Origin: an uncultured Bacteroidales bacterium
GTDB lineage: Bacteria > Bacteroidota > Bacteroidia > Bacteroidales > P3
Reading direction: 5' to 3'
DNA: 64,000 bases
Assembly (NCBI GenBank): GCA_947175635.1
Contig: CAMWNM010000002.1
Location: 1 to 64,000, forward strand
This document shows positions 27,941 through 50,184 of the stretch, piece after piece. Position 1 is the first letter of the stretch; the number at the start of each line of letters is the position of its first letter. Position numbers and translations under genes: made by a program. Under the pieces are notes generated by a model. The model did no database searches. It was not told where the DNA came from and saw only the letters and a program-made list of their open reading frames with translations.

Positions 27941-29245
27941 TTACTCCGCATTCCTCAAATCGATGAACTTAACCACCTTCCTTCCCGCAGGCGGGCGTTG
28001 CAGGCGGGCTATTATCTCCGGCACTTCGAAAACCACATCGGGCGCCACACGGACTTTGGAACGGAATATATCCTTTATCTGCTTGACAAATTCCTCGCTA
28101 TGGTTTTTGCTACCTATCTTTATCTGCACCTGGTCGGTCTGGATGGAATTGGTGTATACCTCGACAATGTAGTTTTCTATCTCGGGGATATTGTCCAGAA
28201 TATCGAACAAAGCTGGCGGATAGAGTGTGGTTCCCTTGAATTTTATCATCTGCCCCTTTCGTCCCAAAACTGAACTGAGGCGCGTGGTATTGCGTCCGCA
28301 ACGGCAGGATTCATCGTAATGGATACAGATGTCGCCGGTTTTGAAACGGAGCAACGGCATTCCGCGCACACCTATCGTCGTAACGGTTACCTCTCCGGGA
28401 AGACCGGCAGGAACGGGTTTGTTTTCGTTATCGAGAAACTCCACGATAATCAGGTCTGCCGGTACATGACCGCCGTTATGACAGGCGCATTCGGTAAACG
28501 AAGACTGCATTTCGGTTGACGCATAGGTGGAAAAAAGTTCAAGTTCGGGCCAACGCTGCGTTATCCGCGCTCCCAAAGCTGTCAACGCTCCTTCGGAAGT
28601 ACGCAGCGCCTCTCCTATACAGATGGCTTTCTTCAACGAACAACCGTGCAGATCGATACCGTTGGTTTGGGCATAATCCATCAGATTGAGCAAAAACGAC
28701 GGTACCACGATGCAACCCGTCGGCTTGATGCGCCGGATGGTATCCCACTGCAGTTCAGGAATCCCGTTGCCCACCCGCACCACACCGCAACCCAGTTCCC
28801 GCGCCCCCATAAAATACGCCAATCCCGCCATGAAACGGCGGTCTATAGTGGTCATCAACTGCAAAATATCTTGGGCGGTACAGCCGCATACGGAAAAGGA
28901 ACAGGCTTCATTATACGCCAAACGGTCCAAATCGCCCGAAGTGAGCGCGAACGTTACCGGATCGCCCAGCGTACCGGATGTGGTTACATAATCCACGATC
29001 TCGTTTTTGGAAACACAGACAAAATCGGCATTATGCAACTGCAAATCTTCTTTGGTGGTAACGGGAAGAGACTGCAAATCCTCTATCCGTCGGATTTTTC
29101 GGATATCTGTCCCGTGTTTTTCAAACATCGTGCGATAGAACTTGGAGTTGGTTTGCAGATAGTGCAGTTCTTCCGCCAACCTTGCCTCCTGAAAGCGTTT
29201 TATCTCCGCATGCGATCGGTAATGTATTTCTTTATCCCTTACCAT
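27941..29245 (-). CDS. Phenylacetate-CoA ligase/CoF synthetase-like adenylate-forming enzyme
   Basis: 'VTTSGTLGDPVTFALTSGDLDRLAYNEACSFSVCG', 'FKTGDICIHYDESCRCGRNTTRLSSVLGRKGQMIKFKGTTLYP'. Confidence 0.88.
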   Translation of the reverse strand: MVRDKEIHYRSHAEIKRFQEARLAEELHYLQTNSKFYRTMFEKHGTDIRKIRRIEDLQSLPVTTKEDLQLHNADFVCVSKNEIVDYVTTSGTLGDPVTFALTSGDLDRLAYNEACSFSVCGCTAQDILQLMTTIDRRFMAGLAYFMGARELGCGVVRVGNGIPELQWDTIRRIKPTGCIVVPSFLLNLMDYAQTNGIDLHGCSLKKAICIGEALRTSEGALTALGARITQRWPELELFSTYASTEMQSSFTECACHNGGHVPADLIIVEFLDNENKPVPAGLPGEVTVTTIGVRGMPLLRFKTGDICIHYDESCRCGRNTTRLSSVLGRKGQMIKFKGTTLYPPALFDILDNIPEIENYIVEVYTNSIQTDQVQIKIGSKNHSEEFVKQIKDIFRSKVRVAPDVVFEVPEIIARLQRPPAGRKVVKFIDLRNAE

Positions 29246-30908
29246 ATTTCCTTATCTTTTTTTCGATTTCCTCCCGCTGGCTTTTTCTTGGAATTTCTTT
29301 TGTCAAAGCCGTTTTCCATGCCGTTTCCGCAAGCGGAAAATTTCCCTGCATGAAATGGTAATCTCCCTGCAAGAGATAGGCTTCGTAAAAATCAGGGTTG
29401 TCTATTGTCAAACTATCCACATAAGCTATTGGAAGCCGCACTGTCCGCTCCACAGCCCGTTTTACCGCCGCCGCCCGCTTCCGGTAACGGATCAGCCGGT
29501 TGTAGCCGGTTGCAAGAAACAATGAATCCTCCGCTATATCGCGCCCGTTTTCCGAATGGAAAAACGGAACCGAGTCCGCATTTCTGAAAATACGGTTCAG
29601 ATCGTAGCAAAGATACCGACCCGATTGCCAAGGTGAAGTGGAAACCCAGACAAGCCTTTGTTCGGGCTTGAATATAACCGAATGATGCGCGATGTACTGA
29701 TGGATGGATTTCTCGTTGGTCAATCCGATCGGCTTTTCTCCCAATCCCTTGTCGTTTCTCAATATGGAAGCAACTTTTGATGGCGTAAGCGGGGTTTGGT
29801 TTCCAATCAGTTCTGCAAGTCTCAGATGGCGGTATTCACTGTCGCTGCAGGCGATATTCTCCTTATTGTCCGGATCTTCGGAAAACGTTTCCGACTGATA
29901 ATGGTTGGTGCCTATAAGCGGTGCTTCCGGCACGGAATAAAGCGCCTGTTTTTCCGGTGTCTTCTCAATGACGGCGGCACGACGCCCGTCTGCCTGTCCT
30001 ATCAACAAGGCTTCGGAAACGAAAGTCTTACAAGTATCCGCAATCCCGTACGCTTCTTCTATCGTGGCGGCATATTGCAGGATATGGCGTGCCAAAAGAG
30101 AAATCGGCATGGCGGCACGAATTGGAACCGGACCTTTGGCGGCATTGATGGTAACCGTAAGCCCTTTTTCATTCATCCCCGACACAACGCCGGTCATACC
30201 CGGCCATCCGACCGAAACGAAACGATATCCTGAATCCGGTGTGACAAAACTCACCAACTTGTTCACCGCAAAATCATCACCCATCCAGAAATCGAAGTTT
30301 CGGCCTATCAAGAGCGAGGAGTCGGCACTCATGTTGTTCCATACCGCAAAAGAACTGCAACCCACCAACATATATTCCTGCATGGCATGGCCGATATCGT
30401 GGGCGGCATGATAGTTGAGCTGCCGTTCGTACGGTGTTCCGAAAACATCGAAATCATGGCTGCAAAATTCGGAAAGGGCCGCTATTTCCGCCCTGTATTC
30501 TTCCGGTATGTACCGCGCCATCCGCCGGTTAAAAAACAACATGAGTTTATGCAAGACCCCAAGGTAGATATCGGAAGGAACCATTTCCTTTATCTGCCTT
30601 ACAAACACCTCTTCCTGAAAACGAAGCAAGTCCCGGCTCATCGCGCCCATCACCGCGCCGCGTTCCACCGCGTTGCCCTTGATGTCCGCTTCCCATATCC
30701 CATAAGGATTCCTATACAATGTATTGCCACGGCACATACGAAGCGTATCCAGGTCAATATCAAGCGTGTATTCGGAAGCCGTTATGCGTATGTCCGGCCT
30801 TTTCAGATCGGCGTTTACCGCCAAAGTCCAGACCATGGCCGCCAAAAGCGACAAAACCGCCAGAATGGCGGATACAACCCACACCGATATTTTTAGGATC
30901 CTACGCAT
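29232..30908 (-). CDS. C45 family autoproteolytic acyltransferase/hydrolase (NTN fold)
   Basis: 'VGCSSFAVWNNMSADSSLLIGRNFDFWMGDDFA', 'VSVGWPGMTGVVSGMNEKGLTVTINA'; N-terminal membrane anchor. Confidence 0.85.
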   Translation of the reverse strand: MRRILKISVWVVSAILAVLSLLAAMVWTLAVNADLKRPDIRITASEYTLDIDLDTLRMCRGNTLYRNPYGIWEADIKGNAVERGAVMGAMSRDLLRFQEEVFVRQIKEMVPSDIYLGVLHKLMLFFNRRMARYIPEEYRAEIAALSEFCSHDFDVFGTPYERQLNYHAAHDIGHAMQEYMLVGCSSFAVWNNMSADSSLLIGRNFDFWMGDDFAVNKLVSFVTPDSGYRFVSVGWPGMTGVVSGMNEKGLTVTINAAKGPVPIRAAMPISLLARHILQYAATIEEAYGIADTCKTFVSEALLIGQADGRRAAVIEKTPEKQALYSVPEAPLIGTNHYQSETFSEDPDNKENIACSDSEYRHLRLAELIGNQTPLTPSKVASILRNDKGLGEKPIGLTNEKSIHQYIAHHSVIFKPEQRLVWVSTSPWQSGRYLCYDLNRIFRNADSVPFFHSENGRDIAEDSLFLATGYNRLIRYRKRAAAVKRAVERTVRLPIAYVDSLTIDNPDFYEAYLLQGDYHFMQGNFPLAETAWKTALTKEIPRKSQREEIEKKIRKYGKG

Positions 30909-32400
30909 TTCCTATTTTTTTCACCAAATATTCCTCTCCCAGCAATGCGCTGCATGTTACCGCCGCACTGGCACAAACGCCTAAACATCCGTGCACATTC
31001 ATATTCTGTCCTGTAAAATAGAGGTTTTCTATCTTCATACGGACAGGAATACGCGAAAGCAACGCGTTCCTGCAATCCTTTATGATGCCATAGGCCGAGC
31101 CATGCAAAGTGGAAGTGTAATCGCGATAGGTCAGCGGCGTGGAAGTATAGACCGTTTCGATTTGCGTTTCCATATCCGGGAAAACGCGGGAAACACAATC
31201 AACCATCGCCTCCGCATAACGTTTCTTCATCGCCTCATACCTTTCTCCCCTTTTGCCTATTTCCGTATCGGCCCACTCTTCCAGAACCTGCCGGAACATC
31301 GGCGAAAGCAGAGAAACCGCATCCGCATAATCCCCTGTCCGAGGCGGCTGCATACTCAAAAGGACAACGGGTAGATTGCAACCTTTGTATTCCCCTCGGG
31401 CAGACCACACATCCCGTCGGTTATGAAAATAATAATTGCTGTTGGCATAGCGAGCCTTTCCGGGTTTCATCAGCACATGCGTCGTAAAGCAACCGTAGGA
31501 ATTGGGCAACGAACGGATATGCGTGCCGTAGGCGGGACGGATCACCTTTTCCCCTTCCAGCAAATCCAGCATCTTGGCCGGATGAATATCCGAAATCACA
31601 TATTTTGCCGAAACAGTTTCATCTTCGTTTATCCGGATGCTCCGCGCAACGGAATTCCTTATCTCTATCCCCTTTACCTCTGCGTTCACGCGCACCTCCC
31701 CGCCATATTTCCGTATCTCCTCGGCAAGCGCATCGGCCACGTGCTGCGAACCGTCTTTGAAACGGTATGCGCTTTCCATGTACGAATACATGATCATGCC
31801 GTGTTCGTAGAACGAAGTCCGCTCCCTGTCGCCGCTATGCAGCGAAACGGTACCGGCAAGGACGTTCCGCAAGGTTTCGTTTTGCGTGCAGGAATTTATC
31901 ACATCGAAAGCCGAAACATTCATGTATTCGAGTCCGCCGTTGGAAATATGCCCCGAACGGAGTACCTCCGGGGAGATAAGGCTTCCTACTTTCCGCAACA
32001 AGCCGCAATATTTCTCGATACCGGCTTTTTCTTCCGGAAAATATTCAACCAGTCGGGCCGCAAACCTCTCTTCCCCGTTGGCATAGCAGTAACGGGAACC
32101 ATCGGGAAAAACAAGTATGTCGTAGGCCTCCGGATCAAGTTGTTGCAGGCGCAGACGGTCTATCACGCCGAAGTACTTGAAATACTGATGCAGGATCTGG
32201 CCCGGATGCAGACTGCCCACATAGTGCATGCCCGTATCCAGAATCTTTCCGCGACGGTAAAAAGACTGGAGACATCCGCCAATTTGCGAATGCTGTTCCA
32301 GCACGCAGACCTTCATGCCCTCCTTGCTCAGCATAACACCGCATGCCAAGCCCCCCAAGCCGCCGCCAACAACAACCACTTCAAAATTTTCCATCCTCAA
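30901..32400 (-). CDS. Phytoene desaturase (CrtI)-like FAD-dependent oxidoreductase
   Basis: 'EVVVVGGGLGGLACGVMLSKEGMKVCVLEQHSQIGG' Rossmann motif; C-terminal 'NLYFTGQNMNVHGCLGVCASAAVTCSALLGEEYL'. Confidence 0.9.
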   Translation of the reverse strand: MRMENFEVVVVGGGLGGLACGVMLSKEGMKVCVLEQHSQIGGCLQSFYRRGKILDTGMHYVGSLHPGQILHQYFKYFGVIDRLRLQQLDPEAYDILVFPDGSRYCYANGEERFAARLVEYFPEEKAGIEKYCGLLRKVGSLISPEVLRSGHISNGGLEYMNVSAFDVINSCTQNETLRNVLAGTVSLHSGDRERTSFYEHGMIMYSYMESAYRFKDGSQHVADALAEEIRKYGGEVRVNAEVKGIEIRNSVARSIRINEDETVSAKYVISDIHPAKMLDLLEGEKVIRPAYGTHIRSLPNSYGCFTTHVLMKPGKARYANSNYYFHNRRDVWSARGEYKGCNLPVVLLSMQPPRTGDYADAVSLLSPMFRQVLEEWADTEIGKRGERYEAMKKRYAEAMVDCVSRVFPDMETQIETVYTSTPLTYRDYTSTLHGSAYGIIKDCRNALLSRIPVRMKIENLYFTGQNMNVHGCLGVCASAAVTCSALLGEEYLVKKIGNA

Positions 32401-35400
32401 TTCCGCTTTGTCAGTACCATAACTCCGTTTTTCTCCGTTGTTTCCCGTAAAGATTCGGAAACCGCAAACACCCGGATACCGCTTTCACATCCCTCGGCCG
32501 TTTCAGCATCAATCACCACCATTCCTCCCGGTCTCAGGCTAAGCGAACAACTCCGCAATACGTCCATCAACGGCATCTTGCCGATTCGGCTTATCAGGAA
32601 TACATCCGATTCCTGCCACTTCTCCGGAATTTCGGAAAGAACGGCAAAACCGATATTGTCTTTATTCATGAAAAACCGTTGTGCCAACCGGATTTTTTCC
32701 GGATCCGCATCGAAACCCGTTATCTGCCGTTTACGGGAAAGCATACCCAACATCAAGGCACGGGCACCGTAACCGCATCCTATATCGGTTATCACTGCCT
32801 GACGAGGAAGGAGCCTGTCTAAATCATCGTAGTAAGCGTCGCGACGAATCTGCTTCATTACCCGGTATGTCAGTCCATGTCCCTTGTAGAGGAAATTACG
32901 GCGCAAGGCGTTGCGAAAATAAGGATTGTCCGCCCGGTCGTTCAAATCGCATAATCCGGCGTATCTGTCCCTGAACCAAGCGTTCCACGCCCTGGCCTGT
33001 TCCCGGTAAGTGTTGCCAAAACCGGATCCATAAGACAGACGCGCTTCTATCTGCGACAATACGCGACCCGGCTTGATATAGAAAGACTGTCGTTTGGAAG
33101 AAACCATCCCCGCACCGTAGATCAAAACAGGCACGATATCTAATTGCAGCTCGTCCGCCAAATAAAACGCCCCTTTATGGAAACGGGCTATCGAACCGTC
33201 TTCGGATCGGGTTCCCTCAGGAAAAACCGCTATCGAATAACCTTTCGAAACTTTATCGCGCAATTGTCCAACGGCGGCGGCATAGCCGTTGGCGGTATGG
33301 AAACAACCCAGATAACGGACGATGGGGCCGATTACGGGCGATTTCCATACCCATCCGTTGGTAACCATAACGATTTTAGGCGTCAGGGCCAACATCAGCA
33401 AGATATCGATAACCGACTGGTGATTGGCGATGATGACGGCCGGCTTGCGGAAAGTTTCTCCTCCCGGATTGAGACGCCGCACCTTGACGGAGGGAATGGT
33501 CTGTAAAAAGAAACGCACAAAGGCGCAAATAAAGACATGCAGACAATATTGCTTTCTGGAACGGGAAACCGGAATGCAGAAACTGAGCAAAACCATAATC
33601 TGCGCCGCCATACAACCCAAAAGAAAGTAGAGGAATGCATAGATGGTTCTTGCCAGATCCCGCAATGTATAGGGGAATCCACCCCTTTGCACAGGCAACG
33701 AGACCAAACGGCGGAAAAGCACGGGCTGCAAGGTATAAGAAACCAGGATAACCACACTCAGACCCAAAACGGAAATGACGGCGATGGAGCGAACTGCCGG
33801 ATGCCGGGCGAATATCAACGCCCCCAGGCCTACAATCGTGGTGAAGGCCGAAAAGAAAATGGCTGTCTTATGGGCATCGAACATCTTTTTACCCTCCCTG
33901 TATTCGCACAAAAGACCATCCATGATAAAGATGCTGAAATCATCGCCGATACCGAATATGAACGTGGATAGAATGATGTTTACGATATTGAACGGTATAT
34001 CGAACAAGACCATGAAACCCAGGATGATGATCCAGCTTGCCAACATGGGCAGGATGGACAGCAACATCAGTTCGATACGCCCGTATGAAAGCAACAAGGC
34101 TATCGAAACCAGCAGAGAAGAAACAAACAGGATGAAATAAAAATCGTTGTTGATTTCCTCCATCATGCGGTTGGAATAATAGCCCCTGTCGATGACGGTG
34201 GTGTTCGGGCAAGCGGATATCCGGTCATAGACAAACGGCTTTTCATCCTTGTCAAGTTCCATTTTCGCCACCAAAAGGCAACCCGAATCCGAAACATTGA
34301 TAAAGTCGGAAAACAGCGGTACATCTGCCAATACCTCCTCGGAATAATCAAAAACCGCATATTCTTTCCGCAACAATTCCCCGAATGCGTCAAAAGCCTG
34401 ATCGCTGAACCCGACGGCGGAAGCGGCCTCTTTTATCTTTTCGCAGAGCGGAAAACGCCTTTCTTCCCAATACTTATTCCAATAATCTATCCTTTGACGC
34501 TGGCATTCGGCATTCACGAAATAACCGTCAACCGTTGAAAAAGAACTTATCCTCCCCTCCTTTTTTAATGATTGCAGACAGCGTTCCAATTCATGGCAGG
34601 ATTCCTGTGTCTGTGTTTCCGTAGGTGCAAAGGAAACCAAAAAAACACTTGAATTTTCGCTACCCGTAAGTTCTTCTAATTTCTGTTCTGCGCTACGCAG
34701 ATGTATCGGTTCGTAATTCAAATTGCCCAGATTACCGTCGAAGCGTACCTTATCGGAAAAAAACGCACTCACTGCCAAAACAAGCAGAAGTGTACCCACC
34801 AGCCATTTGTTGCGTTCGTACGGATAACTGTTTATCCGATCGATCCAATGCAGTAACTTTCCTTGTTGTCCGCTTTTCCCGGAAGAAAGGAAATGCGGCA
34901 GGAAAACCAGACAAAAAACAGTGGTGCCCACCAAAGCGAGAGCGGCAAAAGCACCGAAATCCTGCAATAGTCTGGAATGGGTGAAGAGCAAGGAAACAAA
35001 AGCGCCTATCGTGGTAAAACCGCCCACCGTAAGGGGGTATGCCAATTCCGCCACCACCTGCCGGGGATTTTCGGCATGTGTATGATGAGAGACAAAATGA
35101 ATGGAATAACTCAAGGCAATGCCGAAAATCGCCGCTCCCGCCCCCATGGCTATGGCCGACATCTGACCCTGCAAAAGCGAAAGCGTTCCCAAAGCGAACA
35201 AAGCACCGAACAAAGCGGGCATTATGATTTGCAGAACCGCCCGCTTGCTCCTGAGCGAAAGGGAAATGACCACAATAACAACTATCAGCGCTACGGTAAG
35301 GGTAAACATGGTGTCGCTCTTGATTTGGCGGGCGTTATAAACGGCGATGGCAGAAGCCCCTAAATAACTTATCTCCATTTCCGTTTCCCGACACACTTGC

Positions 35401-36104
35401 GCCAACACATCTTCCAGACGGCGCACAAAAGCGTCGTTCTCGCCCGTGCTTCCCATACCGTTCACCGGATCGGCAAAAAGAAACAGGACTGAACCGTCTT
35501 GTGAAAAAATACGGTCGGCATACAGTTCATAACCTGTCTGGTCGCCGAATCGCGCCAATCCCGTCAACAAAGGAGTACCTATGCCCAATGGATCACGCAA
35601 GCAAACCCTGCCCACAAACGCACCTGAGGGAGATGCCACCACATCAAAACAACGGCGAACCGCCGCTTCTACCGAATCAGCCTCCGACAAGGCTTCTATA
35701 CGTGCATAATCCGCCGTATCGAGAAATATCGGAAGATTATCGTAAATAAAGGCCATGCCCCTCTCTACCGCGTCCGCATCCGCCCCGGGCGTAATCCGGG
35801 AAAGCCAACCTTCCTCCACCAAAGGTTCCAAGGCTTCCAACACCTTGTCTGCGGCATCCATCATGGATTCCTTCTCCTCTCCCTCCACCAAGATGACGAT
35901 ACGGTCTGTAAGCCTCAGGTTTTCGAAAACCAACGACTGGCGGCGGCCTGTCTCGTTATCGGAAAAAAACGATGTTATATCTTCCACAAAGCGCATACGA
36001 AACGCCAACGCACCCATAACGAACACCCATACCGCAAGCAGCACATAAAGCAACGGCTTATGCAGGCAGAACCAATCGTATGTCTTTACAAAGAAGTTAC
36101 GCAT
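32397..36104 (-). CDS. Trifunctional MMPL/RND-like transporter - lysophospholipid acyltransferase - SAM methyltransferase fusion
   Basis: 1235 aa: MMPL TM blocks 'FGIALSYSIHFVSHHTH' and 'FIFGIGDDFSIFIMDGLL'; PlsC 'VIIANHQSVIDIL...FPEGTRSEDG'; MT 'ITDIGCGYGARALMLG'. Confidence 0.93.
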   Translation of the reverse strand: MRNFFVKTYDWFCLHKPLLYVLLAVWVFVMGALAFRMRFVEDITSFFSDNETGRRQSLVFENLRLTDRIVILVEGEEKESMMDAADKVLEALEPLVEEGWLSRITPGADADAVERGMAFIYDNLPIFLDTADYARIEALSEADSVEAAVRRCFDVVASPSGAFVGRVCLRDPLGIGTPLLTGLARFGDQTGYELYADRIFSQDGSVLFLFADPVNGMGSTGENDAFVRRLEDVLAQVCRETEMEISYLGASAIAVYNARQIKSDTMFTLTVALIVVIVVISLSLRSKRAVLQIIMPALFGALFALGTLSLLQGQMSAIAMGAGAAIFGIALSYSIHFVSHHTHAENPRQVVAELAYPLTVGGFTTIGAFVSLLFTHSRLLQDFGAFAALALVGTTVFCLVFLPHFLSSGKSGQQGKLLHWIDRINSYPYERNKWLVGTLLLVLAVSAFFSDKVRFDGNLGNLNYEPIHLRSAEQKLEELTGSENSSVFLVSFAPTETQTQESCHELERCLQSLKKEGRISSFSTVDGYFVNAECQRQRIDYWNKYWEERRFPLCEKIKEAASAVGFSDQAFDAFGELLRKEYAVFDYSEEVLADVPLFSDFINVSDSGCLLVAKMELDKDEKPFVYDRISACPNTTVIDRGYYSNRMMEEINNDFYFILFVSSLLVSIALLLSYGRIELMLLSILPMLASWIIILGFMVLFDIPFNIVNIILSTFIFGIGDDFSIFIMDGLLCEYREGKKMFDAHKTAIFFSAFTTIVGLGALIFARHPAVRSIAVISVLGLSVVILVSYTLQPVLFRRLVSLPVQRGGFPYTLRDLARTIYAFLYFLLGCMAAQIMVLLSFCIPVSRSRKQYCLHVFICAFVRFFLQTIPSVKVRRLNPGGETFRKPAVIIANHQSVIDILLMLALTPKIVMVTNGWVWKSPVIGPIVRYLGCFHTANGYAAAVGQLRDKVSKGYSIAVFPEGTRSEDGSIARFHKGAFYLADELQLDIVPVLIYGAGMVSSKRQSFYIKPGRVLSQIEARLSYGSGFGNTYREQARAWNAWFRDRYAGLCDLNDRADNPYFRNALRRNFLYKGHGLTYRVMKQIRRDAYYDDLDRLLPRQAVITDIGCGYGARALMLGMLSRKRQITGFDADPEKIRLAQRFFMNKDNIGFAVLSEIPEKWQESDVFLISRIGKMPLMDVLRSCSLSLRPGGMVVIDAETAEGCESGIRVFAVSESLRETTEKNGVMVLTKRN

Positions 36105-38266: not shown

Positions 38267-38963
38267 AGACCTTTATATTTGATAGTTGATCCAATCCCAC
38301 AATTTCATAACCTTTTTCACGTGCGGTCATGATAAAGCCCTCCACAAGGCTGTCGGCTTTATCGCAACGGTCGTGAAGCAACACCACCGCACCGGGATGC
38401 AGTCCCCTCAGCAGACGCCTCCGGATCCGCTCCCGCGAGACGCGCCTGCGTGTATCGAACGCTCTCAGGCTCCACCCCACCGTCTGATACTCTCCCGCAC
38501 GTACCGCCGCCGCAACAGCGGGATTGGTAACGCCGAAAGGAGGACGGAACAAACAAACCGTTTTCCCGGTAATGGCTTTCAATATATCACGTGTCTTTTC
38601 CAGTTCGGCCGCTATCCTCACGCGGTTTGCGAAAGGAAAAAGCCCCGTATGGGTAAGGGAATGGGAGCCTATGATATGCCCTTCCCTCACCATGCGCCGC
38701 ACCAGTTCGGGATGCCTTCCGGCCTTTTCCCCTATCAGAAAGAAAGCCGCCTTGACGTGATGCCGTGCCAAAACATCCAGCACCCGTGCCGTCATGGTCT
38801 CATCAGGCCCGTCATCGAACGTGAGGGCTATCTTTCTTTCCATACCCTGACCACGGCAAAATGCCTTTACATACACCTTGCTGTCTATAAAGAACGAGGC
38901 GTAATAACCGAAAGAAAGCAGTAAAACTGCAAAAACAAGCAATATATAGACGGTTACAGGCAT
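38256..38963 (-). CDS. Polysaccharide deacetylase (NodB-like)
   Basis: 'IALTFDDGPDETMTARVLDVLARHHVKAAFFLIG', 'IGSHSLTH', 'FRPPFGVTNPAV'. Confidence 0.93.
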   Translation of the reverse strand: MPVTVYILLVFAVLLLSFGYYASFFIDSKVYVKAFCRGQGMERKIALTFDDGPDETMTARVLDVLARHHVKAAFFLIGEKAGRHPELVRRMVREGHIIGSHSLTHTGLFPFANRVRIAAELEKTRDILKAITGKTVCLFRPPFGVTNPAVAAAVRAGEYQTVGWSLRAFDTRRRVSRERIRRRLLRGLHPGAVVLLHDRCDKADSLVEGFIMTAREKGYEIVGLDQLSNIKVYEN

Positions 38964-39751
38964 TGCAATACGATAATGGTCGGCTCTTTGCCGAAATAAT
39001 CATTATAAACCACCACTTCCGGAGCCCCTTTCCGTATCTCTTCCACCGCCTTGGCAAAGCGCATGGCCGAACAACAAGGATAAACCGTTTTATCCAAAGA
39101 ACGCCATACCCGCGTACCGGATCCCGCAGCGTATTTTTCCCTGCATTGCCTTTCCGACAAAGGCGAAGGAAGAAACTCCACCTTGCTGATTCTGGCGATG
39201 CTGTTTGAGGTAGCCGTAGCAGTTAAAAGGGTGAACACCGCACCCTCTCCGTCTTCCGCACCACGCCAAAAACCCATACGTTCCATGATATGGTGCTGGG
39301 TAGGTGTACTTTCATCAAAAGCACCGGCCAACACGCGGCAGGCATCGCCCTCCTTCAATTGCAGCATCGCATCGGTCAACGCGCTTTCAAAACTGCGTCC
39401 CCGATGCACGTAGGTCATATTGTAACAATGGTTTCCGGCCAACAAAGCTATCTGCGCTCCCACCGTATTGAACGTAGACTGTATAAAAGGCGTCGGATTA
39501 AGCATTTGCCCGTCCGTACGGTGTATCTGCTCCAGAAAACGTTCGCTGTCTGCCAGACAGCCCAAACCTGTTGCCGTAACTATGGCATCCAATTCCGCAA
39601 TGCCTGGAACACCGCCGGTACATTCAAACGCCGTTGCCGTGGCCATCTTCACGATCCGGCTCATGCGGCGGCGCAAAGTGGCGTCCGGCACCACTTCCTT
39701 GATGTCGTGCGTCAGATTAAGATGCGTTGCCACTGCTTCTATATAACACAT
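38954..39751 (-). CDS. Beta-ketoacyl synthase N-terminal-like protein (putative chain-length-factor partner)
   Basis: 265 aa thiolase-fold protein; 'TPFIQSTFNTVGAQIALLAGNHCYNMTYVHRGRSFESALTDAM', catalytic Cys position occupied by Arg in manual alignment. Confidence 0.75.
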   Translation of the reverse strand: MCYIEAVATHLNLTHDIKEVVPDATLRRRMSRIVKMATATAFECTGGVPGIAELDAIVTATGLGCLADSERFLEQIHRTDGQMLNPTPFIQSTFNTVGAQIALLAGNHCYNMTYVHRGRSFESALTDAMLQLKEGDACRVLAGAFDESTPTQHHIMERMGFWRGAEDGEGAVFTLLTATATSNSIARISKVEFLPSPLSERQCREKYAAGSGTRVWRSLDKTVYPCCSAMRFAKAVEEIRKGAPEVVVYNDYFGKEPTIIVLQCL

Positions 39752-39758
39752 ACCGGCT

Positions 39759-40937
39759 TCAGTCTTTAGAAAACAACAACGAGGTACAATTTCCGCCGAA
39801 ACCCAAGGAATTGGAAAGCACGTAATGAAGCGGCGCTTCCCTTCGTTCCGTTACGGGAATCAGGCCTGTTTCCTCGATCGGACGAGAAAAATTCAAGTTG
39901 GGACAGATAACACCCCGATGCAGGGCCTGTACCGAAAAGACGGCCTCCATTCCACCTGCCGCCGCCAAAGTATGCCCCGTAAAACCTTTGGTGGAACTGA
40001 ACGGCGGCACCTTGTTGGCGAACAACCGACACAAAGCGCGGCTTTCCGAGAGGTCGTTGTTGGGTGTACCGGTTCCATGCGCGTTCACGTAATCTATTTT
40101 GTCGGCCGCCACGCCCACCTTGCGCAACGTGTCTGACATAGCCTTGTAACAACCCTCTCCGGAAGCGGAAGATGCCGTCTGATGATAGGCGTCGTTGGCG
40201 TTCGCACCCCCTGCGAGATAAGCGTAAGGTTCTTTTTGCAAGGTATCCTCCCGTTGCAACACGATATAACCCGCGCCTTCTCCCAGATTCAATCCGGCAC
40301 GGTCGGCATCGAACGGACGGCAGGGCTGTTTATCCAATATCATCAACGAACCGAACCCGCCGAGCGTAAACAGGCTCAGTGCTTCTGTCCCACCAGCCAC
40401 CATCCTGTCGGCAATACCGCAACGGATAAGTCTCGCCGCTGTTAAAACGGCATTGGCAGCCGATGAACAGGCCGTGCTGACGGTAGTGGTATAGCCTTCT
40501 ATGCCGCAATGGCGAACAATAGCCAAAGTGGAAGCCGCGCAATCGTGCATCGCCACCTCCCGCAACCTCCCCCGTTCCGGATCGGCAAGATAATCGGCAT
40601 AAAAGATTTCTGTCCTGTCCATGCCGCCCACCGACGTGCCCGAAACCAAACCCGTACGCAAGCTTTTGCCCTCTCCGCTGTCAGCCAAAGCTTCCTGCAC
40701 CGCCAATATGCCCAATAATGCCGTCCGCGAATACACGCAATACTCTCCCACTCCTGCCCGCAATGCCAATTCCTCATTGGAAAAAGGCACTTCGCCTACA
40801 GGTACGGCAAGCGAAACCGGCAAAAAGCGGGATTCGGAAACGATACCGCTTTCCTCCCGGCCTATGGCAACCATATTCGCCTCCACTCCGATGCCGAGGG
40901 AAGAAACGATACCCATACCGCTAACGGCAATCCTCAT
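39759..40937 (-). CDS. Beta-ketoacyl-ACP synthase (catalytic KS)
   Basis: 'TVSTACSSAANAVLTAARLI', 'VNAHGTGTPNNDLSESRAL', 'STKGFTGHTLAAAGGMEAV', 'SNSLGFGGNCTSLLF'. Confidence 0.93.
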   Translation of the reverse strand: MRIAVSGMGIVSSLGIGVEANMVAIGREESGIVSESRFLPVSLAVPVGEVPFSNEELALRAGVGEYCVYSRTALLGILAVQEALADSGEGKSLRTGLVSGTSVGGMDRTEIFYADYLADPERGRLREVAMHDCAASTLAIVRHCGIEGYTTTVSTACSSAANAVLTAARLIRCGIADRMVAGGTEALSLFTLGGFGSLMILDKQPCRPFDADRAGLNLGEGAGYIVLQREDTLQKEPYAYLAGGANANDAYHQTASSASGEGCYKAMSDTLRKVGVAADKIDYVNAHGTGTPNNDLSESRALCRLFANKVPPFSSTKGFTGHTLAAAGGMEAVFSVQALHRGVICPNLNFSRPIEETGLIPVTERREAPLHYVLSNSLGFGGNCTSLLFSKD

Positions 40938-40938
40938 C

Positions 40939-41196
40939 TTACCTGCGGTTTTTGGCGATGTATCCGGCCAAAGTTTCCACCGAATAGAAAACCGGTTTAG
41001 CCTCCGCCGAATTTTGCAGCTTGATGCCGTAATGCTTTTCTAAAATCAGGATTATCTCCAAGGCATCGATCGAATCCAGTCCGAGCCCTTCTTCTCCGAA
41101 TAGGGGGGCCTTGCTGTCGATGTCTTCCGCCGTGATGTCTTCCAGATTCAATTCCCGTATCAAATGCTCTTTGAGTTCCCGAATCAATGATTCCAT
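40939..41196 (-). CDS. Acyl carrier protein
   Basis: 'LFGEEGLGLDSIDALEIILILEKHYGIKL' phosphopantetheine site DSI. Confidence 0.92.
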   Translation of the reverse strand: MESLIRELKEHLIRELNLEDITAEDIDSKAPLFGEEGLGLDSIDALEIILILEKHYGIKLQNSAEAKPVFYSVETLAGYIAKNRR

Positions 41197-41233: not shown

Positions 41234-42913
41234 TTATTTCCTTTCAATCCATTTCAGGCGGACATCCCATTTTCCGTCCATAAAATCGCACCAACCGCAG
41301 ACCGCCGCCTTGGCATATCCGCCGGCAATCAGCAACCGGGCGTAACCTTCCGCCTGGCCGGTGTCCTGATTCTCGATAAAAAACGTGTTGTCTCCTTGTA
41401 TCTTATGGCGGATGCAGACTTCGCCCGCCGCCACATTGGGCAACGTATAAACGAACACAGCCGGCGAAACAGGCTCCGTTTTTTGATCCAGAATCCGCTG
41501 ATGCAGCAAGTCCGTATCCAAAGATGCCGCCCTGTTGGCAAGCACTATCGCTACCTCTTCGGGGGCAAGTCCCTTTTCCGCCAAAGAACCTCCTATCAAG
41601 CGTTCCGCAGCCACGTATGCGGCTTTTGAAAGGTCGCTCATCTTGTAGAACTTCATGTTGGGCGATTGCAGTTTTTTGAATTCCTCCCGTATGAATTCGG
41701 CAAACGGTTTGTCTGACAAAGGCAAGGTATAAACAGAAGTTTCCCTCACTTGGAAAGCATTGCTCCGGGGTAAAACCCGATGCGTTTCACCCTCGAGGGA
41801 AAGTACAACGGCGGCATTGCAACCGCCGAAACCCGATGCGGTCTTTACACAATGATTCCCTTTCAGCCGGCTATGGCAGGCCGAAACATGGAGAGGACAC
41901 GGAACACCCATTTCCGAAAAGCCCTTCGTGCCATACACGATACCATCGCGCAAGGCCTGCGCGCTGATTACGGTCTCCACCACCCCCGATGCCCCGAGCG
42001 TATGCCCGATATAACCTTTCAGGCTGTTGAGCGGAACATGTTCCAAGCCCGCAAGATGAATGGCTTTACTTTCCATTTCATCGTTGTAGAGCGTAGCCGT
42101 ACCGTGGGTATTGACCATCGCCACTTCCCGCGGATCTATGCCTGCCTGCCGCATAGCCGCGCGGATGGCGTAATACAGTCCGTCGCCCGTACGGGAGGGC
42201 CCCGATATATGATTGGCATCGTTCGTTACCGCTCCACCGGAAAGTTCAACCGCCGGTTCCAACGCCTCGCTTTTCCGGGTCGTCAGCAAAAGGGCTCCGC
42301 AGGCCTCGCCCAACGACAAACCGTCACGGTCTTTGTCGTAAGGACGGCATGGTTGGCCGCTCACAGACTTGAATGCACCAAAACCCTCGGCAATAAAGGC
42401 CGAAAGCATATCGCAACCGGCCACCACCACACGGCCGCACACTCCGCTCAAAAGCAAACGTTGTCCCACCACAAGCGCCGAAACACCCGATATGCAGGCG
42501 TTCGACACCGTTATCGGCAAAAACGCGGCATTGAAATAAGCGGCGATCCTTCGGGCGCATTCTCCCAAGAAAGCCTCTGACGGCGGTTCGTTTCCACAAT
42601 TCGCGATACGGTCTATATTACCTTTTGTGGAAGAAAAGACAAACCGCACATCCTTGTCTGCAAGATCAATTCCCGATTGCGCCTGCACCGACTCTATGGC
42701 GCGGATAACGCAGGTCTCAAGCCTGGTATAGCCATCTATTGGCTCCATGGATGCAATCCGTCCGCAAACCATCCCCAAGGATTCATCCATACACAAACCC
42801 GTACGGTATTCCCGTATGGAAGAAAGCGTATCCCGCTTGTTCCCCAAAGCCGTTACGATACTGTCGGCTCCCAGCCAGACATGCCTTATTTCTTCAGCCA
42901 TTTTTCTCTCCAT
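41234..42913 (-). CDS. Beta-ketoacyl-ACP synthase with extra C-terminal degenerate thiolase-fold half domain
   Basis: 559 aa; KS 'ITVSNACISGVSALVVGQRLL', 'VNTHGTATLYNDEMES', 'GYIGHTLGASGVVE'; C-terminal 'VFVYTLPNVAAGEVCIRHKIQGDNTFFIENQDTGQAEGYARLLIAGG'. Confidence 0.88.
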   Translation of the reverse strand: MERKMAEEIRHVWLGADSIVTALGNKRDTLSSIREYRTGLCMDESLGMVCGRIASMEPIDGYTRLETCVIRAIESVQAQSGIDLADKDVRFVFSSTKGNIDRIANCGNEPPSEAFLGECARRIAAYFNAAFLPITVSNACISGVSALVVGQRLLLSGVCGRVVVAGCDMLSAFIAEGFGAFKSVSGQPCRPYDKDRDGLSLGEACGALLLTTRKSEALEPAVELSGGAVTNDANHISGPSRTGDGLYYAIRAAMRQAGIDPREVAMVNTHGTATLYNDEMESKAIHLAGLEHVPLNSLKGYIGHTLGASGVVETVISAQALRDGIVYGTKGFSEMGVPCPLHVSACHSRLKGNHCVKTASGFGGCNAAVVLSLEGETHRVLPRSNAFQVRETSVYTLPLSDKPFAEFIREEFKKLQSPNMKFYKMSDLSKAAYVAAERLIGGSLAEKGLAPEEVAIVLANRAASLDTDLLHQRILDQKTEPVSPAVFVYTLPNVAAGEVCIRHKIQGDNTFFIENQDTGQAEGYARLLIAGGYAKAAVCGWCDFMDGKWDVRLKWIERK

Positions 42914-43341
42914 TTGGCCAAAAACGGCGGAACTGTCAGGCTCAGTTCTCCGCTTTCATCCACAAATACCTGCATGGAACTTCCCCTTGCCGCCACCGCA
43001 CCATCCGAATCGCGCCGTATGGTGTATTCAAAACACAGTTTGGCAGCCACCGTATCGATATAAAGAATCTCCACCGTGGCCGTATCGCCTACCGAAAGCG
43101 GGCGAAGGAACTGCAACTGCAAATCCACCACGGGTGCCGTATAGCCGCTTCGGTATATATCCATATAACCGATACCTCCGAAATGGCGGCCGAAAGCCTC
43201 GCGTGCATCTTCAAAATAGCGTACATACTCGCCATGCCACACAATCTTCATCGAATCCACTTCGCTGAAACGGACCCGTATCTGAACCGAATGGCGCAAA
43301 AGCGCTTCTCCCTTATTCCGTTTTGTCCTGTTCGGCAACAT
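42886..43341 (-). CDS. Acyl-CoA/ACP thioesterase, 4-hydroxybenzoyl-CoA thioesterase family
   Basis: 'RVRFSEVDSMKIVWHGEYVRYFEDAREAFGRHFG'. Confidence 0.88.
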   Translation of the reverse strand: MLPNRTKRNKGEALLRHSVQIRVRFSEVDSMKIVWHGEYVRYFEDAREAFGRHFGGIGYMDIYRSGYTAPVVDLQLQFLRPLSVGDTATVEILYIDTVAAKLCFEYTIRRDSDGAVAARGSSMQVFVDESGELSLTVPPFLAKWREKWLKK

Positions 43342-43753
43342 CTTCCAAAACTATTTTCATTTTTCCGTGCGCCATCTCCCTGCCGTCGGCATACACTACG
43401 GCCCGTATCAACGAAACGCCGAACACCTCCTGCACCACCGATATTTCCGTACAAAGCTTCTGCCCTGCCTGCGGAAATTCAAGCACTTCGAAATCATCGA
43501 CCGATCCGATAAAGCCCAAACGCACTTTCCCTCCTTTCCGCAAAGCCGACCACCCCGCACGGGCAGCGGCAGACTGTGCCATATGTTCGATAATACCGCA
43601 TTCACAGAGCCTACCGTTCTCGCAAAACATGTTCTGCCGAAGAACCGTAAGCGTGGTACGCGAAATACCCGCTTCGTCCAAGCCCGCAAAACCGTCTATC
43701 ATGACAACCGGCGGCCGCTGGGGTATCAATTCTATAACATCCGCTTCCTGCAT
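43313..43753 (-). CDS. Hotdog-fold 3-hydroxyacyl-ACP dehydratase-like protein (ApeP/ApeI-type)
   Basis: 'LIPQRPPVVMIDGFAGL', 'CGIIEHMAQSAAARAGW'. Confidence 0.8.
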   Translation of the reverse strand: MQEADVIELIPQRPPVVMIDGFAGLDEAGISRTTLTVLRQNMFCENGRLCECGIIEHMAQSAAARAGWSALRKGGKVRLGFIGSVDDFEVLEFPQAGQKLCTEISVVQEVFGVSLIRAVVYADGREMAHGKMKIVLEDVAEQDKTE

Positions 43754-44832
43754 ACCAATATCGAATGCCCCATTCCCAAACCGTCGTGTATCGTTTCCAC
43801 CTCAAGTCCCGCTGCCTTTACGCAACCCGACATATCGTCCGAATGATACATCTTGCTGTTTCCGTTGGCCATCGCCGTAAAGTAAAGGCTGGTAAGGGTA
43901 AGACAATAGGCCGCGGTCTCGAACCGCTGGCGATCCCAAAAAGTTTCCATGATGAGGAGACGGGTCTCCGGCCCCATTACCCGTGAAGCACGGCGCAAGA
44001 TGCCTGTTACCTGCTCTTCCGAAAAACAATCCAAAAACTGGCTCATCCAGATGATGTCGAACTTACTGTCGGGAAATGCCGCATTTTCATCCAACAAGTC
44101 GGCTCCATAACCATGTATGCGTTCCGAACCGGGCTTTCCTTCCGTCGCTTTCCTCATCAAGCCTATCTGCTGAGGCAGATCCATAAGGGTAACCTCCACA
44201 TCGGCATCATATTCCACGCACCTCATCGCCCATCTTCCCGTATTTCCGCCTACATCCAAGAGCGACCTCACTTTCTTCTCTCCCTCGAAAACAACCTTCA
44301 ATGCGGCATCGAAAGAAGCATCGGAATAGTAGTGGTCAAAGCCGAACCAACTCTTTTGAGCCGCTTCGGGTAGCGAGGAAAGAGCTTCGTAAATGGTGGT
44401 CCACTCTCCGAAAACCTTCAAGCCTTCCGGTTTCCCGTTTCGAAGCGCCTCTTCCAAACGAAACAAACCTAAATAATTGACATCGTGGTTAAAATTCATA
44501 TTAACCCGCACCATCGGGTCGTTGAGCAAAAACCAGCCCGTTTTCGAAAGCGTGTATTTCCGTTCCGATACTTTGACCGTTCCTATCGACAGCGAGGCCT
44601 CCAGCAAGACTTGCACCGCATAGCGCGAAAGCCCCGTCTTTTGCATGATCTCCTCCAATGTCAAACCGTTCGGATTATCGGAAAGATATTCCAAAATACC
44701 GAATTTCACCATCAGCCGCGATACCTGGAACACCACCGGCCCAAATGCGATTTCCTGGGCAAGACGCTGCGCTTCTGCCGCCGACAGGGTTTCTCGTGTA
44801 TATTCTTTTTCAAGAGCCGGAAACAGCTTCAT
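43732..44832 (-). CDS. SAM-dependent O-methyltransferase (class I, with dimerisation domain)
   Basis: 'GLTLEEIMQKTGLSRYAVQVLLEASLSIGTVK', 'SLLDVGGNTGRWAMRCVEYDADVEVTLMDLPQQIGLMR', 'DIIWMSQFLDCFSEEQV'. Confidence 0.9.
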   Translation of the reverse strand: MKLFPALEKEYTRETLSAAEAQRLAQEIAFGPVVFQVSRLMVKFGILEYLSDNPNGLTLEEIMQKTGLSRYAVQVLLEASLSIGTVKVSERKYTLSKTGWFLLNDPMVRVNMNFNHDVNYLGLFRLEEALRNGKPEGLKVFGEWTTIYEALSSLPEAAQKSWFGFDHYYSDASFDAALKVVFEGEKKVRSLLDVGGNTGRWAMRCVEYDADVEVTLMDLPQQIGLMRKATEGKPGSERIHGYGADLLDENAAFPDSKFDIIWMSQFLDCFSEEQVTGILRRASRVMGPETRLLIMETFWDRQRFETAAYCLTLTSLYFTAMANGNSKMYHSDDMSGCVKAAGLEVETIHDGLGMGHSILVCRKRML

Positions 44833-46192: not shown

Positions 46193-47419
46193 CTAACCTT
46201 TAAACTCCTTTACAATCAACGTGGAATTGGTTCCCCCGAAGCCGAACGAATTGCTCAGGAACATATCGAATCCCGCATCCACCCTACGGCTGGGAATATT
46301 CAACAAAGCGGAAGCCTCATCGGGTTCTTCGAAATTAAGATTGGGCGCGATAAATCCGTTCCGCATCATCAGCATCGAATAAACCACCTCGCTGGCGCCC
46401 GCCATCCACATCTCATGCCCCGTAAACGATTTGGTGGATGCCACATACGGCCGGCTGCTTCCAAACACTTCCGCTATCGCTTTGGCTTCATTCAAGTCTC
46501 CTACGGGTGTGGAAGTGGCATGAGCGTTTACATATCCTATTTCATTTACCGAAACACCGGCGTTTTCTATGGCACGCCGCAGGGAAGCGGCTGGCCCCAC
46601 CACATTCGGAACGGAAATATGCTCGCCGTTCGATGAGAATCCATACCCGATCACTTCTCCCAAAATCTCCGCACCCCGCGCCACCGCCGATTCATAACTT
46701 TCCAGAATCACCGTAGCCGCACCACCGCTGGGAACCAAACCGTCACGGTGCTTGTCGAAAGGCCGGGAAGCCTTTTCGGGTGCATCCTCCCGCATGGAAA
46801 ACGCGCTCAAGGCATCGAAATTTCCCACCGAATAAAGATTCACTTCTTCCGCACCGCCGCAGATAACGCGTTCCTGTAACCCCTGTTTTATCAAAAGAAA
46901 GGCTATTCCGATGGCATGGGCACCGCTGGCACACGCGCCCGACACCGTGAAATTGATACCGCGCAGGTTGAAGATCGTGGAAAGGTTCATGGTTACCGTT
47001 GAATTCATCGACTGGAAGATATTGCCCGACCCCACCATGGCGGTGTTTCGTTTTTCCCGGATAATGTCCACACCGATAACCGTTGCCTCGGCGCAACTGT
47101 CGTTGCCGAAAAGTATGCCCGTCTCATGCGAAGCAAGATAATCGCGATCCATGCCGGCCTGCAACAAAGCCTCCTCTGTAGCCACATACGCATACTGTCC
47201 CTGTTCCGACAGACAAAGCCTCTGACGTCTGTCCAACCTGCCCTTCAGTTCCGGCAGGCGCAATAACCCCGTCAACATGGAACGGTAGCCGAACTCCTTT
47301 CTTTTAGGATCAATGCCGATTCCCGATCTTCCCTCATAAAGGGAACGCAGAACTTGCTCCTTGTTCTCCCCTATGCAGGAATAGATACCCATTCCGGTGA
47401 TAACAACCCTTTTGTCCAT
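46193..47419 (-). CDS. Beta-ketoacyl-ACP synthase (FabF-like)
   Basis: 'FTVSGACASGAHAIGIAFLLIKQG', 'VNAHATSTPVGDLNEAKAI', 'STKSFTGHEMWMAGASEVVY'. Confidence 0.94.
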   Translation of the reverse strand: MDKRVVITGMGIYSCIGENKEQVLRSLYEGRSGIGIDPKRKEFGYRSMLTGLLRLPELKGRLDRRQRLCLSEQGQYAYVATEEALLQAGMDRDYLASHETGILFGNDSCAEATVIGVDIIREKRNTAMVGSGNIFQSMNSTVTMNLSTIFNLRGINFTVSGACASGAHAIGIAFLLIKQGLQERVICGGAEEVNLYSVGNFDALSAFSMREDAPEKASRPFDKHRDGLVPSGGAATVILESYESAVARGAEILGEVIGYGFSSNGEHISVPNVVGPAASLRRAIENAGVSVNEIGYVNAHATSTPVGDLNEAKAIAEVFGSSRPYVASTKSFTGHEMWMAGASEVVYSMLMMRNGFIAPNLNFEEPDEASALLNIPSRRVDAGFDMFLSNSFGFGGTNSTLIVKEFKG

Positions 47420-47928: not shown

Positions 47929-48674
47929 CAGTATAATCCTCCATTAATTGAAATAGTTTCACCTGTAATGTAGGCGGCTTTATCCGACACCAGAAAAGAC
48001 ACCAGTTCGGCCACTTCTTCCGCTTGGCCGAAACGACCGGCGGGAATCAATTTCTTAAGGGCGGATTCATCCAGATCCCGCGTCATATCCGACTTGATAA
48101 AGCCCGGTGCCACGGCGTTCACCGTTACTTTGCGCGGCGCCACTTCCTGCGCCAACGCCTTGGTTGCGCCAATCAATGCCGCTTTTGCCGCCGAATAGTT
48201 CACCTGCCCGGGCATTCCTTTCAATCCGGAGAGCGATGATATGTTTACAATCCGGCCGAAACGTCGAGTCATCATGTTTTTAAGCAGGTTCCGCGTAATA
48301 TGGAAAAAACCGTTGAGCGTGGTGTCAAGCACTTTATGCCAATCAGCGTCCGGCATAAAGACCATCAGATTGTCGCGCCGTATTCCCGCATTGTTTACCA
48401 ATACGGCGATATATGCTTGGGGATGTTTCTCATGCCAATCCGCCACAGCCTTTTCCGTTTGTTCCGGACAAGAAACATCGAAACGCAGCAATTCCGCCGT
48501 TCCTCCCGCATTCCGTATCACTTCCTGCGCCTGAAGGGCAGCAGGCTCATCAGCGGTATAGTTTATGATTACCGAATAGCCGTCTTGCGCCAAACGGACC
48601 GCCACGGCCCTTCCGATACCCCGGCTGCCGCCCGTCACCAATGCATATCGTTCTTTTTCTTCCATCTTATTCAA
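47928..48674 (-). CDS. 3-oxoacyl-ACP reductase (FabG-like SDR)
   Basis: 'YALVTGGSRGIGRAVAVRLAQDGYSVIINY', 'VNNAGIRRD', 'NYSAAKAALIGATKALAQEVAPRKVTVNAVAPGFI'. Confidence 0.95.
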   Translation of the reverse strand: MNKMEEKERYALVTGGSRGIGRAVAVRLAQDGYSVIINYTADEPAALQAQEVIRNAGGTAELLRFDVSCPEQTEKAVADWHEKHPQAYIAVLVNNAGIRRDNLMVFMPDADWHKVLDTTLNGFFHITRNLLKNMMTRRFGRIVNISSLSGLKGMPGQVNYSAAKAALIGATKALAQEVAPRKVTVNAVAPGFIKSDMTRDLDESALKKLIPAGRFGQAEEVAELVSFLVSDKAAYITGETISINGGLY

Positions 48675-50184
48675 CCGAAGTTTGCACCAACATCTCCTGC
48701 AAGGCCGCTATTTCCTTGTACTTGGGCGTGTCGTCCTTGAACGCGGGCACGATATCGCGCACACGGTCGTATATCTTCCGCGTGGCCGGCGCCAGTTTGT
48801 CGGCCACCGACAGGCAATCCACCGCCTGCGCCAAAGCCATCATCAGTATAGCCAATACCTGACCTGCGTTTTCCACCACATGGCGGCACAGCAAAGCCGA
48901 ATTGGTTCCCATGCTCACGATATCCTGATTGTCGTTGTTGTTCGGAATGGAATGCACGTACATCGGGTTGGAAAGCGTCTGACTTTCGGCCGTGGTGGAA
49001 GTGGCGGTGAACTGCGAGGCCTGCATGCCGTAATTCAATCCCAAAACACCCATATTGACAAAGGGCGGCAAGATTCCGTTTATGCGGTCGTGGAACAGAT
49101 AGTTCAACTGCCGTTCGGCCAACATGGTCATTTTGGTTACGGCAATCTTGAGCTTGTCCATCTCAAACGACACGTAATCCCCGTGGAAGTTGCCGCCATG
49201 ATAAACATTACGCGTGGCCGGATCCACAACCGGGTTGTCGTCCACCGCGTTCAACTCGGCCACCAACACTTTTTCGGTATAGGCCACCGTATCGTAAACC
49301 GCCCCTAAGATCTGGGGGATGCAGCGCAACGAATAGTAGGGCTGCACCTTGTTCCGAAACACCGGCTCTGAAGAAGCGCGGTAGAGTTCTTCTTCGCGCT
49401 TGCGCAAACAACGGCTGCCTTCCGCGATGCGGCGCATATCGGCGGCGATGTGCCGCTGCCCCTCATGCTCCTTGAGCGCATTGAGTTCGTCGGCCATAAA
49501 ATCATCGTAAGACGAGGCTATCTCGTTCACCATTACCGAAGCGGCCGTTGCCCAGCACAGCAAACGTTTGGCCGTGAGAAGATTCACCAACCCCAAACCG
49601 GTCATTACCGCCGTTCCGTTGGTAACGGCAAGCCCTTCCCTGACCCTTATTTCCATGGGCCTGATTCCGGTTTGCCGCAACACTTCGGCCGTATTGTGTC
49701 TCTGACCTTTGTAAAAAACCTCCCCTTCTCCAATCAAAGCCAAGGCGATATGCGCCAACTGCACCAAATCACCGCTGGCTCCCACACTGCCATGTTCGGG
49801 TACAACGGGAACGATGTCGGCATTGAGAAAATCAATCAATACCTCCAGCATCTGCACGCTTACCCCCGAATAACCCTGCACAAAAGTCTGCAAACGGGAA
49901 ATCATGGCCGCCCGTACACATATCTCCGGCAAAGGTTTGCCCGCTCCTGTGGCATGGCTACGGATAATATTGTATTGTAATTCCTTAAGATGAACATCCT
50001 CAATACGCCATTGGGCCATCGGGCCAAACCCGGTATTGATGCCGTAAATTACTTTTTCTTTGGAAAACGCCTTTAAGAACTCGTGGCAGGCCGCCACCTT
50101 ACCCTTATCAGGAAACTCTATTTTTTCTTTACGATACAACAAGCGTTCAAACTCATCTATCGATAACTTTCCGTGTACGTTCAT
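48667..50184 (-). CDS. Aromatic amino acid ammonia-lyase (tyrosine-ammonia-lyase-like, HAL/PAL superfamily)
   Basis: MIO triad 'EHGSVGASGDLVQLAHIALALIGEGEVFYKG'; 'VIYGINTGFGPMAQWRI', 'QFTATSTTAESQTLSNPMYVHSIPNNNDNQDIVSMGTN'. Confidence 0.95.
   Translation of the reverse strand: MNVHGKLSIDEFERLLYRKEKIEFPDKGKVAACHEFLKAFSKEKVIYGINTGFGPMAQWRIEDVHLKELQYNIIRSHATGAGKPLPEICVRAAMISRLQTFVQGYSGVSVQMLEVLIDFLNADIVPVVPEHGSVGASGDLVQLAHIALALIGEGEVFYKGQRHNTAEVLRQTGIRPMEIRVREGLAVTNGTAVMTGLGLVNLLTAKRLLCWATAASVMVNEIASSYDDFMADELNALKEHEGQRHIAADMRRIAEGSRCLRKREEELYRASSEPVFRNKVQPYYSLRCIPQILGAVYDTVAYTEKVLVAELNAVDDNPVVDPATRNVYHGGNFHGDYVSFEMDKLKIAVTKMTMLAERQLNYLFHDRINGILPPFVNMGVLGLNYGMQASQFTATSTTAESQTLSNPMYVHSIPNNNDNQDIVSMGTNSALLCRHVVENAGQVLAILMMALAQAVDCLSVADKLAPATRKIYDRVRDIVPAFKDDTPKYKEIAALQEMLVQTSVE

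Follow-up and report, generated by a model that had tools for sequence, protein, structure and literature searches.

A ketosynthase fused to a catalytically dead half-thiolase domain, its probable second subunit, in a flexirubin-type cluster of Bacteroidales

Small and catalytically dead partners of ketosynthases (KSs) are known from several systems. ApeC is a chain-length factor (CLF) of a single thiolase fold, a dead partner of half the usual size (PMC8358021), and it pairs with the active KS ApeO in a polyene cluster (PDB 6QSP; PMC8358021). AmcG, the ~157-aa dead partner in the cispentacin KS-'cyclization factor' AmcF-AmcG, is insoluble alone (PMC10698177). In the PfaC/OrfB didomain of the PUFA synthases (PDB 6RIW) a KS and a CLF-like domain share one chain. 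In Chitinophaga pinensis, FlxC, FlxI, FlxL, FlxN and FlxO were all listed as putative beta-ketoacyl synthases (PMC3992019).

Here we describe an open reading frame (ORF) in 64,000 nucleotides of DNA from an uncultured Bacteroidales bacterium of gut type (the whole of this stretch is called the window below), which encodes an active-type KS, FlxI, followed in the same chain by a dead half-size domain, FlxL. ApeO-ApeC likewise joins an active KS to a dead half-size partner, but as two chains. PF13723 matches ApeC-like proteins and not FlxL, and since FlxN/FlxO of the window are themselves an ApeO/ApeC-like pair, FlxI-FlxL is added as a second one. The KS of the AmcF-AmcG system is of a similar type (the AmcF model matches FlxI with E=8e-47), and AmcG is the only named family of small partners that FlxL touches (E=0.005-0.001); the score of FlxL against the AmcG/CYF model NF058659, however, is 16.6 bits, far below the cut-off of 80 bits, and AmcF and AmcG are separate chains with a different pathway chemistry, one extension plus cyclisation. 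PfaC/OrfB resembles our protein in being a fusion, but its CLF is full-length and it belongs to a type I megasynthase. By gene order, the same two proteins lie between FlxH and FlxM in C. pinensis, where they are split and where FlxL was treated as a KS although it has no KS active site (PMC3992019). In the openly accessible literature FlxL was found in one paper only, and no account of a CLF that is fused or truncated was found for flexirubin clusters or for clusters of Bacteroides.

The locus and its ketosynthase

The locus belongs to the flexirubin (orange-pigment) type of aryl-polyene clusters: FlxA, FlxJ and FlxY all score above their NCBIfam cut-offs (Table 1), and acyl carrier proteins (ACPs), a FabG-like reductase and dehydratases are also present. 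With FlxJ (NCBIfam) and the FlxP deacetylase (PMC3992019) as anchors, gene order identifies the KS as FlxI and the C-terminal domain as FlxL, and the ORF as a fusion of the two.

Table 1. Features of the flexirubin-type locus, in window positions
Feature	Position	Strand	Basis or remark
FlxA tyrosine ammonia-lyase	48667..50184	minus	NF053541, 832 bits, cut-off 700
KS, FabB-like (FlxC / ApeR position)	46193..47419	minus	profile matches
FlxJ family methyltransferase	43732..44832	minus	NCBIfam NF053543, 614 bits, cut-off 560
4HBT thioesterase (FlxH position)	42886..43341	minus	3' end overlaps start of FlxI-FlxL ORF
FlxI-FlxL fusion protein	41234..42913	minus	559 aa; ATG at 42913, second in-frame ATG at codon 5
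KS domain (FlxI), aa 1-372	41798..42913	minus	Pfam PF00109/PF02801; AlphaFold/Foldseek
KS nucleophile Cys140 codon (VSNACISG)	42494..42496	minus	invariant 20/20
Catalytic His270 codon (HGTAT)	42104..42106	minus	invariant 20/20
Catalytic His304 codon (GHTLGASG)	42002..42004	minus	invariant 20/20
Linker, aa 373-404	41702..41797	minus	variable; fused homologues are 19% identical on average
Half-thiolase CLF-like domain (FlxL), aa 405-559	41237..41701	minus	profile, AlphaFold and Foldseek matches
Gln516 codon, aligned with KS cysteine	41366..41368	minus	profile alignment; not conserved
ACP (FlxM position), directly downstream of FlxI-FlxL	40939..41196	minus	PF00550; PRK09184 above cut-off
KS, ApeO-like (FlxN position)	39759..40937	minus	profile matches
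Half-KS, ApeC-like (FlxO position)	38954..39751	minus	PF13723
FlxY acyl-CoA ligase	27941..29245	minus	NF053551, 672 bits, cut-off 520

The ORF runs without interruption from 42913 to 41234 on the minus strand, a strand that the original prediction had not given. That prediction took the first ~380 aa for a complete KS, and this is confirmed by the matches to PF00109 and PF02801 and by the alignment of fused relatives, in which Cys140, His270, Lys299 and His304 are invariant (20/20). With the Cys-His-His triad, the Lys and both the N and C domains, residues 1–372 have, as judged from the sequence, everything expected of a KS; their best match in the PDB, in sequence and in fold, is ApeO (6qsp_A). 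An assembly artefact was considered as the source of the fusion and rejected, because the same fusion is found in two relatives of 83–84% identity and at 20+ other loci.

The C-terminal half-domain and its placement on the ketosynthase

The C-terminal ~155 aa are homologous to residues ~70–205 of KSs and CLFs. Residues ~405–559 match NCBIfam FabF models around residues 68–190 (E=4.5e-5), and a profile of the FlxL family retrieved from the PDB only KS and CLF chains, with the ishigamide CLF 6kxd_B on top (E=1.3e-4). Modelled alone with AlphaFold, the domain is thiolase-like (pLDDT 86), and the best PDB matches of this model in Foldseek are the CLF AntE and KAS II (TMq ~0.6). It follows from this homology and these fold matches that the FlxL domain corresponds to the first half of a thiolase-fold KS, the half that forms the interface in KSs, and that the other half is absent. 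The original reading of the C-terminus as a second N-terminal thiolase half is thereby borne out by profiles, AlphaFold and Foldseek, and a fold of another kind, which would have spoken against it, was not what the two structural methods returned. Against the profile of FlxO/ApeC-like half-KSs FlxL gave E=2.5e-4, yet an hhalign probability of just 43%; hhalign comparisons with alignments of the KSs FlxN and FlxI, taken from the same set of loci and of low diversity, yielded nothing usable, unlike HMMER profiles and structure, by which the relation between FlxL and KSs was recovered. Pfam does not recognise FlxL, and PF13723 matched 0/12 members.

The domain has no active site: the Cys is missing, and the second half is absent together with its His residues. 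A KS-like fold with a dead active site is what FlxL shares with the CLFs of type II PKSs; it is not a full-length thiolase of two halves as they are (~380–415 aa), having ~155 aa as a fused domain and ~180–240 aa where split.

In the AlphaFold model of the whole single chain (pLDDT 91.2, pTM 0.93) the FlxL domain is docked on the KS. Foldseek aligned this model to single KSs with TMq 0.58–0.61 and to the single-chain KS-CLF of PfaC (6riw) with TMq 0.77 over 750 columns, the rmsd of the full alignment being 7.3 Å. Since the PfaC match reaches 0.77 and the single KSs only ~0.6, much of the FlxL domain is predicted to fall at the location of the CLF. We therefore regard it as likely that the protein is a one-chain fusion of an active KS, FlxI, with a dead half-thiolase, FlxL, which replaces the second KS subunit. 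FlxL is best read as acting as a CLF-type partner, while by its size and by the residue discussed below it is not a canonical CLF, nor is it an ApeC (PF13723) or an AmcG by the criteria of those families. The suggestion that a KS and a truncated CLF-like half are joined in one polypeptide thus agrees with the thiolase-like fold and with its position at the CLF site in the single-chain model. The further remark that this would be unusual stands for the fused half-CLF, for which we met no earlier description in the openly accessible literature, but not for the principle, as KS/half-CLF pairs (ApeO-ApeC, AmcF-AmcG) and a full KS-CLF fusion (PfaC) are known.

The KS part might instead form an ordinary homodimer, to which FlxL would be appended outside the KS-KS interface as an accessory for ACP docking or as a scaffold. 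All homodimeric KASs do match the KS part well, and in one relative an ACP is fused behind FlxL; nevertheless, the only distinctly better match of the whole chain is the tandem KS-CLF PfaC, the FlxL domain is homologous to the interface half of a KS, and AmcF-AmcG and ApeO-ApeC provide precedents for a dead partner, so that we consider the homodimer unlikely.

Fused and split relatives and their co-occurrence

FlxI and FlxL are separate genes elsewhere in Bacteroidota. Related loci were confirmed at 562 places in GTDB genomes and the 80 nearest to the window, essentially all from Bacteroidota, were kept; the two proteins are encoded separately in 56 of these and in one ORF in 23, a share that reflects selection by nearness to the window and is not a prevalence. 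In the tree, 22 fused rows form one clade centred on Bacteroidales, and one locus (L071) was fused independently. A further FlxI-FlxL fusion occurs in a genome (G209) whose relatives are split, and the family of the window itself holds both states (L017–L020 are split). Two other arrangements were encountered. In the same family as the window, KS, FlxL and ACP make up a single chain of 679 aa (L007:1183-3222), and in a metagenome-assembled genome FlxL is joined in frame to the ApeO-like KS FlxN rather than to FlxI (L059:5899-7719).

Among 212 Bacteroidia genomes with a completeness of at least 90%, FlxL is present in 39 and FlxI in the identical 39 with zero exceptions. Phylogenetic independence is not given for these counts, and the majority of the FlxI/FlxL pairs lie within one cluster. 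In one genome (G156) a partial FlxI adjoins FlxL; in another (G219) ~400 kb of the same contig separates the two genes, and in four more they are on different contigs. FlxN and FlxO, the ApeO/ApeC-like proteins, have a common set of 42/212 genomes, and a FlxA-type tyrosine ammonia-lyase (TAL) accompanies FlxI and FlxL in 38/39. Three genomes (G159, G198 and G290) have FlxN-FlxO only, without FlxI, FlxL or a FlxA-type TAL; their ApeO/ApeC-like pair apparently belongs to aryl-polyene clusters with another starter. These distributions suggest that FlxN-FlxO and FlxI-FlxL are two pairs, each of a KS and its half partner, and that FlxI-FlxL is tied to the tyrosine-primed branch.

The same data bear on the idea that FlxL acts in trans with FlxN or FlxC and that its fusion to FlxI is a mere co-expression device. 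The in-frame joining of FlxL to FlxN mentioned above and the adjoining FlxL and FlxN genes of Mucilaginibacter-type clusters would fit such a role. FlxN, however, has its own half partner in FlxO, with a matching distribution over genomes, three genomes keep FlxN-FlxO without FlxL, and in the 212 genomes FlxI is never found without FlxL, nor FlxL without FlxI, which makes action in trans quite improbable.

Residue Gln516, conservation and the possible role of FlxL

Gln516 had been aligned by eye with the catalytic Cys, and the profile alignment likewise places the KS Cys on this residue. The conclusion drawn from it, that the Cys-to-Gln exchange marks FlxL as a CLF, fails. Among the 20 fused proteins the column contains Y/E/H/K/A/etc. 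and Gln once (1/20), and in the broader alignment it is Phe/Tyr in 25/27 and Gln in 1/27; in both sets the Gln is that of the present protein alone, and it is also found in the two closest relatives (L002 and L003). FlxO, the ApeC-like half-CLF encoded two genes downstream in the same cluster, has no Gln at the matching site either. With a residue that varies among relatives and a neighbouring half-CLF that does without it, the hallmark argument cannot be upheld: as a family, FlxL does not have Gln in place of Cys, and the Gln at the dead cysteine site is incidental, with no conserved part to play. A Gln-defined CLF, decarboxylating or priming via this residue, is accordingly very improbable in spite of the alignment of Gln516 with the Cys, given that only this protein and the two nearest to it have the Gln and that FlxO lacks it.

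What is conserved in FlxL lies elsewhere. Mean identity among the fused homologues is 49% for the FlxL domain, 50% for the KS and 19% for the linker, and because the domain is conserved at the level of the KS it is taken to be a product of neither chance nor decay. The invariant residues are KF-KM, S-L-D-T-D and SPAVFVYTLPN..GE..I, none of them at the dead cysteine site. These segments align with KS residues of the region that in KAS and CLF structures makes up the dimer interface and the acyl pocket. An equation of the invariant Asp468 with FabF Ile108, a residue that gates the acyl pocket (PMC7138838), was dropped, as the alignment sets Ile108 on Ala462. A decaying, functionless duplicate of the N-terminal half of the KS is hardly credible: every catalytic residue is gone from the domain, but it is conserved as much as the KS and represents a separate family with invariant motifs in hundreds of Bacteroidota genomes.

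If FlxL indeed replaces the second subunit, FlxI would be the elongating ketosynthase, with its active site intact, and FlxL would stand in for the other KS of the usual dimer as a truncated chain-length-factor-like partner. We infer that the FlxL half would provide one wall of the acyl cavity of the KS across the pseudo-twofold interface, and that it may stabilise the KS and tune FlxI for one step of the aryl-polyene chain. FlxI-FlxL would then serve the branch primed with tyrosine or coumarate via FlxA, with FlxN-FlxO carrying out the general polyene elongation; the step could be, at a guess from the association with FlxA, the first extension of 4-coumaroyl. Somewhat more tentatively, FlxI-FlxL may represent a third subfamily of type II KS partners, not recognised before, next to the full CLFs and ApeC/AmcG; its half-CLF would be reserved for a step that is specific to flexirubins and acts on 4-coumaroyl starters derived from tyrosine.

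From this point of view FlxL, which has figured among the putative ketosynthases since 2014, is reinterpreted as the dead partner of FlxI. Flexirubin-type clusters appear to have two pairs of a KS and a half-CLF, and one of these pairs follows the tyrosine ammonia-lyase branch. Since KS and partner are naturally fused here, the contribution of the smallest CLF-like partner to a KS also becomes testable with one polypeptide instead of a heterodimer. If our reading is true, the one-chain KS-half-CLF of Bacteroidales, in one case a KS-half-CLF-ACP, could be studied free of the problems of subunit assembly.

The cluster probably makes an aryl polyene that lacks the resorcinol ester; a complete flexirubin is unlikely because no DarB, the dialkylresorcinol gene, scored above the cut-off in this 96%-complete genome. 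FlxO has 265 aa here versus ~355 aa in Flavobacteriia; within the phylum its C-terminal KS half has been reduced until the protein is of the size of ApeC. Elsewhere in the window, a 1235-aa protein (32397-36104, minus strand) combines an MMPL/RND exporter, a 1-acylglycerol-3-phosphate acyltransferase and a methyltransferase-like domain, and a C45-family autoproteolytic acyltransferase (29232-30908, minus strand) is encoded between FlxY and a CrtD-like desaturase (30901-32400).
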